Shown here in pieces: positions 56,526-60,620 of a DNA stretch of 64,000 bases. This stretch comes from Pedobacter lusitanus (GTDB lineage Bacteria > Bacteroidota > Bacteroidia > Sphingobacteriales > Sphingobacteriaceae): contig NZ_CP157278.1 of the NCBI RefSeq assembly GCF_040026395.1, positions 3,286,001 to 3,350,000 on the forward strand, in the 5' to 3' direction. Position 1 is the first letter of the stretch. Each line of letters starts with the position of its first letter. Made by a program: the position numbers and the translations under genes. The notes below the pieces were generated by a model. That model saw nothing but the letters and a program-made list of their open reading frames with translations, made no database searches and was not told the DNA's origin.

Positions 56526-56596
56526 TTTGGTTCCAATAGCAGAAAAACTGGTATGACATTATTTTGTCGCTAGTTAGTCGTTAGAGTTAATACGCC

Positions 56597-56680
56597 ATTG
56601 AAACGGGGTTGAAGCGGGGTTGAAACGCTTCGACCCGTATCAACCCCGCTTCAACCCCGTTTCAATCCCGCTTCAACACT
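56597..56680. repeat. REP/MITE-like palindrome of 11-bp TTGAAnCGGGG units
   Basis: Left arm 56597-56623 and right arm 56640-56666 are perfect 27-bp complements. Each arm is built from tandem 11-bp units (TTGAAACGGGG, TTGAAGCGGGG), and the array runs on past the right arm (CCCGCTTCAAC to about 56677). The GC-rich units stand out in an AT-rich gene-free stretch (56432-56807). The 16-nt centre has a small ACG/CGT hairpin. Apart from this and the terminator at 56462-56525, the stretch shows only AT-rich DNA leading to the XRE gene. Confidence 0.8.
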
Positions 56681-56807
56681 AACCAGTATATATCCGGTTC
56701 TATACTAGAATATAGATGCAATAGTAATTTGTCTTATTCCCACTCTTTACCCTCAACAGGAATATATTTTCCAATTCCAAATCCGCCGGCTCTGAATTCT
56801 CGTTAGT

Positions 56808-57824: not shown

Positions 57825-58850
57825 ATGAAGTTAAGTGTCCTTGTTCTGATTACTGCTCTGGCAGTTGGCCTGTCTATCGGGCTGGTAAATTTCCATTTCC
57901 AGCAAAGCTGGTATTTTATGCTTGTCTCTTTCGGGGTTTCGTTCGTGACAAGTTTTATTATGTTTTACTACCTGCTGGAAAAATACATCTATTCAAAAAT
58001 TAAACTGATCTATAAACTGATCCATAATCTTAAGCTGGGTAAAGACCTGAAAGATGCACTGGGCGAATATGTGAGTACAGATCCGATCAATGATGTGGAG
58101 CACGAAGTGAAAGAATGGGCCGGTGCAAAGAAACAGGAAATTGACCTGCTTAAAAAACAGGAACAGTTCAGAAGAGAATTTTTATCAAATGTCTCTCATG
58201 AATTTAAGACCCCGCTTTTTGCAATTCAGGGTTATATAGAAACTTTACAGGACTGTCTGCTGGACGATCCTGAAATGGCTGTTAAATTTCTGCAAAAGGC
58301 AGAGAAAAATGTTGAACGCCTGAGTTATCTGATCAATGACCTGGATGCGATTTCAAAACTTGAATCAGGAGAGGTACCTATCGATTACCGGAAGTTTGAT
58401 TTTGTACTGCTGGCTAAGGAAGTTATGGAAGCACTGGAGGATAAAGCCAGCAAAAGAAAAGTTCAGCTCTCTTTCAAAGAGAAATATATGCACCCCGCTT
58501 TTGTAAACGCCGATCGCGAAAAAATCAGACAGGTTATGATTAACCTGATTTCCAACTCCATTAAATATGGAAAAGAAAACGGATCTACTGCTATAAAAAT
58601 ATTTGAATTACATGATCAGTACCTTATTGAGGTCACAGACGATGGAATTGGAATTGATGAAAAACACCTGCCCAGACTTTTTGAACGCTTCTACAGAATT
58701 GACTCTCACCGGTCAAGAGAAGTTGGCGGAACAGGTTTGGGACTGGCTATCGTCAAACATATTCTGGAAGCTCACCAGCAGATTATATCTGTGAGAAGCA
58801 CTCTTCAGATCGGGACAACTTTTGCTTTTACGTTGCAAAAAATTGGTTAA
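57825..58850 (+). CDS. PhoR-like sensor histidine kinase, no adjacent regulator
   Basis: A 341-residue kinase starting at ATG 57825 (TTG at 57816 rejected). Two close membrane helices (about 2-19 and 26-46) with almost no periplasmic loop, as in PhoR; a short cytosolic linker; HisKA with phospho-His in SNVSHEFKTPLFAIQGYI; HATPase with NLISNSIKYG, DDGIGI, FERFYR and GGTGLGLAIVKHIL. No response-regulator gene adjoins. It lies directly before a phosphate uptake operon that carries a Pho-box-like repeat, which supports a phosphate-sensing role (inference). Confidence 0.88.
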   Translation: MKLSVLVLITALAVGLSIGLVNFHFQQSWYFMLVSFGVSFVTSFIMFYYLLEKYIYSKIKLIYKLIHNLKLGKDLKDALGEYVSTDPINDVEHEVKEWAGAKKQEIDLLKKQEQFRREFLSNVSHEFKTPLFAIQGYIETLQDCLLDDPEMAVKFLQKAEKNVERLSYLINDLDAISKLESGEVPIDYRKFDFVLLAKEVMEALEDKASKRKVQLSFKEKYMHPAFVNADREKIRQVMINLISNSIKYGKENGSTAIKIFELHDQYLIEVTDDGIGIDEKHLPRLFERFYRIDSHRSREVGGTGLGLAIVKHILEAHQQIISVRSTLQIGTTFAFTLQKIG

Positions 58851-58875
58851 GATTTAAAGAAATATTCCTTTAATG

Positions 58876-58916
58876 TTAACACTTAACACTAACTTAACAT
58901 TGCGATCCTACTTTTG
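58876..58916 (+). promoter_or_regulatory. Candidate Pho box and promoter of the phosphate uptake operon
   Basis: ACTTAACA (58881-58888), CTA, ACTTAACA (58892-58899): exact 8-bp direct repeats with 11-bp period, preceded by another TTAACA (58876-58881). Nine bases further on is TACTTTTG (58909-58916), a perfect -7 box with no -33 TTG. This is the layout of PhoB-type activated promoters, where the tandem repeat replaces the upstream promoter element. Predicted start about 58921. Confidence 0.7.
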
Positions 58917-58937
58917 TAACCATATCTTATAGTTAAC

Positions 58938-59579
58938 ATGAATAATATTTTCAAGTTCTTTACACCAAAAGACAAAAAATTCCAACCGCTGTTTGAACAA
59001 GCCGGAAGCAATGTATTAAAGATCTCAGAAGCACTTTTTCTTGCATTAAGTACAAAAGATCTGGAAAAAAGAAAAGAATATATAAAAGAGATTGAACGTC
59101 TTGAGCACGTTGGTGATGAAATCACTCACTCTATCTTCTTAGAATTAAGTAAAAACTTTATCACTCCTTTTGACAGGGAAGATATTCATGCACTGGCTAG
59201 TGCAGTTGATGATATTGCAGATTATATCCATGCTTCGGCAAGTAATATAGAACTGTATAACATTACGAATATCGGCGATGCCATGATTAAACTGGCAGAA
59301 TTACTGGTAGAAATGTGTACAGATTTAGATAAGGCAATCAGAGAATTGAGAAGCTTTAAAAATATCCGTGTAATTGCTGACGCCTGTGTACGTATTAACA
59401 GTGGCGAGAATCAGGCAGATTACGTTTGTAATATTGCAATTGCGAGGTTATTTGAATTTGAAACCAATGCAATTGAACTGATCAAGCAAAAAGAAGTCCT
59501 TCAAACACTTGAAATGGCTACAGATAAATGTGAAGATGCAGCAAATGTGTTGGAATCTATATTGGTTAAAAACGCTTAA
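58938..59579 (+). CDS. DUF47 / PhoU-like phosphate transport regulator
   Basis: A 213-residue, all-helical cytosolic protein of the DUF47 family (FKFFTPKDKKFQPLFEQAGSNVLKISEALFLAL, IERLEHVGDEITHSIFLELSKNFITPFDREDIHALASAVDDIADYIHA). Acidic clusters (EHVGDE, DREDIH, VDDIAD) are the metal-binding sites seen in PhoU relatives. DUF47 proteins are usually encoded next to Pit transporters and modulate them, as here (12 bp gap). Its expression is probably driven by the Pho-box promoter just upstream. Confidence 0.92.
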   Translation: MNNIFKFFTPKDKKFQPLFEQAGSNVLKISEALFLALSTKDLEKRKEYIKEIERLEHVGDEITHSIFLELSKNFITPFDREDIHALASAVDDIADYIHASASNIELYNITNIGDAMIKLAELLVEMCTDLDKAIRELRSFKNIRVIADACVRINSGENQADYVCNIAIARLFEFETNAIELIKQKEVLQTLEMATDKCEDAANVLESILVKNA

Positions 59580-59591
59580 AATTCAACGAAA

Positions 59592-60620
59592 ATGCTTACA
59601 CCCTTATTGATCGTCGTAATTGTACTGGCCATCGGTTTCGATTATATCAATGGTTTTCACGATGCAGCTAATTCTATAGCAACCGTTGTATCAACAAAAG
59701 TACTTACCCCTTTTCAGGCAGTACTCTGGGCAGCACTTTTTAATTTTGCTGCTTACTTCTATTTTACGGATCACAAAGTTGCCAATACGATTGCTAAAAC
59801 GGTTGTGGAGAATTTTATCACCCTCGAGGTAATTCTGGCCGGACTGTTAGCTGCGATTACATGGAACCTGTTTACCTGGTGGTATGGTATTCCATCGAGT
59901 TCATCACATACCCTGGTTGGAGGTTTTGCAGGAGCTGGTATGGCTAAGGCAGGATCACTGGGTTTTGGTGTGCTGTCTGCAATTAACCTTGCCCCGATCC
60001 TTAAAATCATTGCTTTTATTGTACTTGCCCCTGTTATCGGGATGTTCATATCAGTAATCATTTCGATTATTTTATTGCATCTTTCTAAAAATGCAAGACC
60101 TTCGGTTGCGGAGAAATGGTTCAAAAAACTACAGTTAATCTCTTCTGCAGCATTGAGTTTCACTCACGGAGGAAATGATGCACAGAAAGTAATGGGTATT
60201 ATTTATGTAGCCATGGTTGCTGCCAAAGTATTAAAAACAGGAGATACCATGCCGGAATGGATTCCATTTACCTGTTATGCTGCCATCTCTTTAGGTACAA
60301 TGAGTGGCGGATGGAAAATTGTTAAAACAATGGGTTCAAAAATCACCAAAGTAAATGCCTTTGAAGGTGTTGCTGCAGAAACTGCAGGTGCGGTAACCCT
60401 GGGTATCACAGAACATTTTGGTATACCTGTATCTACTACACATACCATTACAGGTTCAATTGTTGGGGTAGGATTGTTAAAAAGAGTTTCAGCAGTAAGA
60501 TGGGGCGTAACGGTAAGTTTGCTTTGGGCATGGGTATTAACTATCCCGGTTTCAGCATTACTGGCTGCCATTATCTTTAAGGTAGTTGACGTTTGTTTTC
60601 CAGGTCTGGGAGCTGTATAA
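59592..60620 (+). CDS. pit: Low-affinity inorganic phosphate transporter, PiT family
   Basis: A 342-residue inner-membrane carrier for phosphate. The PiT signatures are present near each end: GFDYINGFHDAANSIATVVSTKVLTP (~12-37) and SFTHGGNDAQKVMG (~192-205), with GIPSSSSHTLVGG and GIPVSTTHTITGSIVGVG as the paired inverted repeats. About ten membrane helices. It is the last gene of the DUF47-pit operon and is closed by a bidirectional terminator. Confidence 0.95.
   Translation: MLTPLLIVVIVLAIGFDYINGFHDAANSIATVVSTKVLTPFQAVLWAALFNFAAYFYFTDHKVANTIAKTVVENFITLEVILAGLLAAITWNLFTWWYGIPSSSSHTLVGGFAGAGMAKAGSLGFGVLSAINLAPILKIIAFIVLAPVIGMFISVIISIILLHLSKNARPSVAEKWFKKLQLISSAALSFTHGGNDAQKVMGIIYVAMVAAKVLKTGDTMPEWIPFTCYAAISLGTMSGGWKIVKTMGSKITKVNAFEGVAAETAGAVTLGITEHFGIPVSTTHTITGSIVGVGLLKRVSAVRWGVTVSLLWAWVLTIPVSALLAAIIFKVVDVCFPGLGAV

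Follow-up and report, generated by a model that had tools for sequence, protein, structure and literature searches.

A conserved tandem repeat upstream of the DUF47-pit operon of Pedobacter is a predicted Pho box, probably shared across the class Bacteroidia

Introduction

The PhoP box of Bacillus subtilis follows the consensus TT(A/T/C)ACA-N5, comprises up to four repeats and works with a sigma factor different from that of the bacteria studied here; the TTAACA hexamers that we describe below in Pedobacter, spaced at an 11-bp period, fit this consensus. Pho boxes have been defined in Escherichia coli, Sinorhizobium, cyanobacteria, Bacillus, Corynebacterium and Streptomyces (PMC4415409, PMC1906773). 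In E. coli, the OmpR-type regulator PhoB binds in tandem to 8-bp direct repeats that are joined by a 3-bp linker and placed 10 bp before the -10 element (PMC1906773, PMC4415409). The Pedobacter box shares this architecture, and binding of the same kind is predicted for it. However, the E. coli core reads CTGTCAT, whereas that of Pedobacter reads TTAACA and is combined with the promoter element TAnnTTTG. The boxes of the cyanobacterial PhoB, SphR (CTTAACCT), are likewise 8-bp tandem repeats with a 3-bp linker and have an almost identical TTAAC core (PMC1906773), but they comprise at least three repeats ending in CCT, whereas Pedobacter has two (pit) or three (phoB), those at pit ending in A. 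Moreover, the two groups of bacteria belong to different phyla and use different sigma factors.

Within the Bacteroidota, one of the dominant phyla of soils, seas and guts, the OmpR-type regulator PhoP of the PhoPR pair of Riemerella anatipestifer was found by DAP-seq to recognize the core TTTAACA. PhoP rises in phosphate starvation and binds its own promoter, and its motif was likened to that of ArcA (PMC9603813); the terms ‘pho box’, ‘direct repeat’ and ‘pst’ are absent from the main text of that article. In Bacteroides fragilis, PhoB of the PhoRB system shifts a 512-bp pstC promoter fragment, and the accessible part of the article yielded no box sequence for this regulator (PMC3547664). The NCBIfam model of the Bacteroides PhoR spans 583 positions, against 341 amino acids for the Pedobacter kinase described below. 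Phosphate depletion of Flavobacterium johnsoniae raises the expression of phoB, plcP and a glycosyltransferase gene of the PhoBR operon, whereas the OprP porin and phoR of this operon are not induced (PMC8115612).

In the accessible open-licence literature, we found no defined Pho box for Bacteroidota. A previous reading of the locus from its sequence alone (the sequence-only reading) had proposed that such a box would be new for this group. This still stands for the box itself, but with the TTTAACA motif of the R. anatipestifer PhoP in print (PMC9603813) the group is not wholly blank. The tandem architecture is already known, and what appears to be new for this phylum is the consensus together with its spacing rule. 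With a fixed spacing rule, such a box makes it easier to infer the phosphate regulon from many genome sequences, also where Pst is missing, and it allows the interplay of an OmpR-type activator with the unusual Bacteroidota promoters to be tested directly.

Results and Discussion

A tandem repeat between a PhoR-like kinase gene and DUF47-pit

The DNA analysed here, hereafter the window, is a 64,000-nucleotide stretch of Pedobacter lusitanus (contig NZ_CP157278.1, positions 3,286,001 to 3,350,000). The closest named relatives of its genome point to a Pedobacter near P. cryoconitis. The repeat lies in the 87-bp gap between the sensor kinase gene and the DUF47 gene (Table 1). Its two ACTTAACA copies occupy positions 58881-58888 and 58892-58899 and are separated by the linker CTA (58889-58891), as checked against the letters of the window, and the core TTAACA-N5-TTAACA covers 58883-58899. 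The downstream TACTTTTG we take to be a -7 element of the Bacteroidota type, with the consensus TAnnTTTG. A Pho box can be expected to have at least two direct repeats at an 11-bp period, which we find here and at all 81 pit and 29 phoB loci compared below; to occupy the -35 region, some 10 bp upstream of a -10 type element, the distance in the window being 9 bp; and to stand before phosphate genes, pst above all. No TTG is present in 58870-58899, and therefore no -33 TTG is found there. The coordinates bear out what the sequence-only reading had described, namely the repeat, the CTA linker, the 9-bp gap to TACTTTTG and the missing -33 TTG, and the further TTAACA hexamers that it had placed at 58876-58881 and 58933-58938 are indeed there, the latter overlapping the ATG of DUF47 at 58938. 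Profile matches also agree with its naming of the flanking genes as PhoR-like kinase, DUF47 and Pit. As judged by eye, the outer hexamers occur in some relatives and are not generally kept. We thus rejected both as general features: the one at 58876 as a true third repeat, being also offset by 7 bp, and the one over the ATG.

Table 1. Features of the DUF47-pit locus (positions in the window)
Feature	Position	Strand	Basis
PhoR-like sensor kinase (HisKA + HATPase_c), orphan here	57825..58850	+	Pfam
Additional TTAACA, offset by 7 bp from the upstream TTAACA of the box	58876..58881	+	some relatives only, by eye
Predicted Pho box, two ACTTAACA direct repeats, 11-bp period	58881..58899	+	sequence, genome count, conservation
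TACTTTTG, presumed -7 element, 9 bp after the box	58909..58916	+	sequence; 9 bp in 77/81 loci
PhoU-like DUF47 / PhoU_div protein, leading gene of the presumed operon	58938..59579	+	Pfam PF01865, 93.8 bits
Phosphate transporter of the Pit type, second gene, 12 bp after the end of DUF47	59592..60620	+	Pfam PF01384, 302.9 bits

Conservation upstream of DUF47-pit within the genus

Without mismatches, the 19-bp repeat is found a single time in the genome (6,049,699 bp), and its reversed control does not occur. When one mismatch is allowed, TTAACA-N5-TTAACA is found once in the window, compared with a mean of 1.01 in shuffled versions of it. One loose match is thus what shuffling predicts, so that the window by itself proves nothing and a chance repeat in AT-rich DNA could account for it. 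The comparison across relatives leads to a different view. Among 222 DUF47 relatives found in GTDB genomes, the best 80 (77-100% identity) were fetched and analysed together with the window. The exact TTAAC-N6-TTAAC lies upstream of DUF47-pit in 81/81 of these loci; in 77 of them a perfect TAnnTT[TC]G lies 9 bp behind the box, and in 3 it lies 10 bp behind. The flanks are variable: mean information is 1.92 bits in the box (1.83 over the nine columns that remain once the ten anchoring TTAAC letters, at 2.0 bits by construction, are set aside), compared with 0.38 in the left flank, 0.57 in the spacer and 1.61 in the -7 element. At the 29 loci where the kinase end is gone from the left flank (L083-L111), the box keeps 1.97 bits. 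An exact repeat beside such flanks at every locus, together with the enrichment before phosphate genes in other families described below, leaves a negligible probability to chance, which is ruled out by the relatives though not by the window alone. Since the 80 loci all come from close relatives, they are not independent, and the sets from other genera constitute the more independent test.

The consensus of the box is TTAACATTAACTTAACATT, from which the window departs by one base. It also contains an additional TTAAC at +6 (TTAACATTAACTTAACA).

The box precedes other phosphate genes of Pedobacter

Upstream of phoB, TTAAC recurs at 11-bp steps in 29/29 recovered Pedobacter genomes, with three copies in 28 of them, and TAnnTT[TC]G stands 20 bp from the box in 28 and 31 bp in 1. 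This set represents 29 of 30 loci, and the remaining one (L183) also bears a triple repeat. The polyphosphate kinase gene ppk, counted without the paralogue locus L404, has an exact box in 27/29 genomes and a box with one mismatch in one more; a -7-like element lies at 10 bp in 28. A third gene, for a metallophosphoesterase whose resemblance to PlcP is limited to its domain (PF12850), has a box within 380 bp in 26/27 genomes at no more than one mismatch (7 exact), versus 1.1 in shuffles, and in the 26 boxed genomes a -7-like element is found at 9 bp in 12, at 20 bp in 3 and at 21 bp in 10. Both ppk and the plcP-like gene had been chosen as phosphate-looking from single sites in this genome, and with phoB they make up the genes followed in relatives. 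A family-1 glycosyltransferase gene follows the plcP-like gene, and the two resemble the plcP-glycosyltransferase pairs that replace phospholipids by glycolipids under phosphate starvation (PMC4796936). At loci L348-L356, a short ORF of ~35-40 codons (by eye) separates the plcP-like gene from its boxed promoter.

Two more sites of this genome (designated G000, C1) were looked at. A second DUF47 gene (G000:C1:5438138-5438755) has only a one-mismatch box ~350 bp upstream, and a calcineurin-like phosphoesterase gene follows it in place of pit. A perfect TTAACATTAACTTAACATT at G000:C1:5746463-5746481 (L172) lies 9 bp before CATATTTG and precedes a putative small hydrophobic ORF of ~70 aa, the ATG of which is very close to the -7 element.

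The box in other genera and families of the class

Outside the genus, we searched the 250 bp upstream of genes for the box at no more than one mismatch. It was present before phoB in 21/32 genomes (shuffle 0.95; 3 exact) and before DUF47 in 17/26 (shuffle 0.70; 7 exact), and was missing in the remaining 11/32 and 9/26, respectively. The DUF47 set derives from 37 matches in 34 genomes, of which 30 loci were fetched; removal of the own genome and of one Pedobacter left 28 genomes, and 26 of these were recovered (all but G032 and G079). Counted by family, the box stands at phoB in 13/21 and at DUF47 in 13/21. Within the same limits, no box was found before pit inside the operon (0/28) or before phoR (0/34). 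The remaining neighbouring genes, taken as a control, were boxed in 13/116 cases (2 exact), above their own shuffles (2.35), and some of these boxed genes lie in pst clusters and may themselves be phosphate genes. The difference between phoB plus DUF47 (38/58) and these other neighbours (13/116) gives a Fisher p of 3e-13. The sequence-only reading had held that absence of the repeat before orthologous DUF47-pit operons would refute a Pho box; the repeat is there in the 81/81 loci described above and, at one mismatch, in the 17/26 genomes of other genera.

That reading had also looked to matches before pst and other phosphate genes for support, and these exist: besides phoB, ppk and the plcP-like gene, boxes at one mismatch outside the genus precede pstS (3/3), the phosphate porin Porin_O_P (2/2) and phoU (1/4). 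The eight pst/pit/phoR cluster loci examined had been selected for their linkage. Placement before phosphate genes, pst included, is thus seen in the genus and other families taken together. One genome (G027) carries a whole cluster of porin, pst genes, phoU, DUF47, pit and phoR, with sites before the porin gene and pstS; apart from porin, PstS, DUF47 and the kinase, its genes were named by eye.

The period of the repeat is also found independently of the full motif. In other genera, pairs of TTAAC are spaced at 11 bp in 17 cases and at 22 bp in 4, compared with 0.1 and 0.2 in shuffles, and a motif-blind count of dyads over 67 upstream regions placed TTAA-N8-TAAC (33 regions, 1.4 expected) and TTAA-N7-TTAA (41 regions, 3.1 expected) at the top. 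Pairs of TTAAC at 5 and 6 bp are in excess as well (5 and 3, versus 0.1 and 0.2).

Helical phase of the box and the -7 element

In Pedobacter, the distance between the box and the -7 element is 9, 20 or 31 bp. In other genera, 29/40 -7 candidates lie 8-10, 19-21 or 30-32 bp from the box, where 23% would be expected (p = 7e-11), and an in-phase candidate is present in 24/38 segments, whereas 500 shuffles give a mean of 4.6 and a maximum of 11; the phase classes behind both figures were fixed after the Pedobacter and other-genus spacings had been viewed, and related genomes are not independent. The agreement between the Pedobacter distances and the in-phase distances elsewhere suggests a rule of one-turn steps, as is expected of an activator that faces RNA polymerase.

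A PhoR-like kinase and a PhoB-like regulator separated in this genome

The kinase at 57825-58850 (341 aa) has its best NCBIfam matches with PnpS (265.8 bits) and PhoR (240.7 bits), both below the cut-off: the PhoR models require 334.2 bits for TIGR02966, to which the 240.7 bits refer, and 500 for NF053855, with which it scores 166.5. The genome encodes 15 OmpR-type regulators. The best PhoB among them is an orphan, G000:C1:5546670-5547356, located 2.2 Mb from the window. It scores 225 bits with TIGR02154 (cut-off 296.2) and 219.4 with NF053854, the Bacteroides PhoB model (cut-off 270), whereas the runner-up regulators score 197 and 181.5. By its context, this regulator would work like PhoB, yet it is not a formal member of the family.

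Among 99 genomes of the class, 83 hold a single match each to the kinase (E 1e-55 or better), and its neighbourhood was read in the 30 best of these 83. Outside the family, it lies directly behind an orthologue (51-71% identity) of the regulator 5546670 in 26/27 loci. In its own family (three members read: G000, G105 and G067), the kinase adjoins DUF47-pit and the kinase-regulator pair is split. The window kinase and the regulator 5546670, adjacent in other families and apart here, therefore look like a separated PhoR-PhoB pair, and by gene order the kinase looks like the partner of this regulator. Across 33 orthologue rows, in which some genomes occur twice, the regulator keeps its recognition-helix core (R198 T I D V H and R205) without change, and R205 is found in 0/14 paralogues of this genome. 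Such an invariant helix core fits a single box across the class.

Predicted action of PhoB at the box

We consider it very probable that the repeat at 58881-58899 is a PhoB box, at which phosphorylated PhoB (PhoB~P) would recruit RNA polymerase when phosphate is scarce. The box would offer two head-to-tail half-sites, one helical turn (11 bp) apart, to an OmpR-type regulator of the PhoB kind, and would take the place where RNA polymerase otherwise needs a -33 element. Upon phosphate scarcity, the PhoR-like kinase of the window would phosphorylate the PhoB-like regulator (G000:5546670), and PhoB~P, placed on the tandem repeats, would contact the sigma factor; this contact would increase DUF47-pit transcription from the weak TACTTTTG promoter. 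PhoB may also act on its own promoter through three repeats, on ppk and on the plcP-glycosyltransferase pair, and Pit would be a starvation-induced importer. The sequence-only reading had the repeat driving the operon. We infer this activation in phosphate starvation from the geometry, and the binding of PhoB and the phosphate signal are predicted as well.

The same box could have the opposite sign, with PhoB~P repressing DUF47-pit in starvation and the operon constituting a high-phosphate system. The orfA-pit operon of Sinorhizobium meliloti is repressed by PhoB~P under starvation. The control of Pit differs among species (PMC4415409), and deletion of phoPR in R. anatipestifer increases pstS 8-fold (PMC5399024), which argues against simple activation if the PhoPR-like pair is orthologous. 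However, the box lies 9 bp upstream of the -7 element, in the place of the -33, which is the position of an activator, and phoB, ppk and the plcP-like gene likewise carry their boxes upstream of -7 elements, mostly in the same helical phase. Repression also fits poorly with the gene content of the genus: no PstS above the cut-off was detected in 25 of its genomes (0/25; best 58.5 of 206.6 bits), and with no such PstS it makes little sense to repress an importer in starvation. For these reasons, repression appears unlikely.

PstS exceeds the cut-off in 3/41 genomes, all from other families. In the present genome, a PstS-like lipoprotein gene (PF12849; G000:C1:3844983-3845756, L173) belongs to what looks by eye like an exbB-exbD-tonB cluster, and no pstCAB was seen near it; as this is the sole PstS-like match, we rejected Pst as the main target here. 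Plant-associated Bacteroidetes have been reported to be devoid of PstSABC (PMC8115612). Because no PstS passes the cut-off in Pedobacter, Pit would be the starvation-induced importer, and it may be the one on which starvation control must act, the absence of Pst being judged by PstS.

Bacteroidia probably share a class-wide Pho box of two to three TTAACA repeats at 11 bp, placed 9, 20 or 31 bp from TAnnTTTG, so that PhoB would always approach the sigma factor of this group from one side of the helix. In Pedobacter, which has apparently lost Pst, the main importer induced by starvation would probably be the low-affinity Pit operon, with the PhoR gene adjoining.

Specificity of the box across the genome

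The box alone does not name a regulon. Only pit and ppk, by eye, are plainly phosphate genes among the 10 exact TTAACA-N5-TTAACA sites of the genome, and the excess of motif matches over the reversed control is modest (112 versus 71, 61 versus 33 and 84 versus 72). A regulon list drawn from the motif alone was therefore discarded as too noisy across the genome. Exact sites such as G000:C1:274787 and 6001541 precede, among others, a gene that by eye encodes citrate synthase and one for a copper-type response regulator, and may reflect either chance or a wider regulon. The latter would be expected if the box were the site of another OmpR-type regulator or of an ArcA-like global regulator, the phosphate genes being part of a broader regulon, and the PhoP motif of R. 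anatipestifer, derived from 583 peaks, was found similar to that of E. coli ArcA (PMC9603813). However, the box stands before phoB itself in all 29 recovered Pedobacter genomes, in triplicate in 28, and recurs at pit, ppk and the plcP-like gene, and elsewhere at pstS and the phosphate porin. We thus regard another OmpR-type regulator or a global one as improbable and retain the PhoB-like one, noting that the gene neighbourhood in other families was read for the PhoB-like regulator alone among the 15 of OmpR type, which makes this a partial comparison.

Apart from the box, the window contains, between two genes at 56575-56688, a 53-nt inverted repeat that is 83% complementary and has an 8-nt loop. 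It is built partly of 11-bp units like CCCGCTTCAAC and looks like a repetitive or mobile element.
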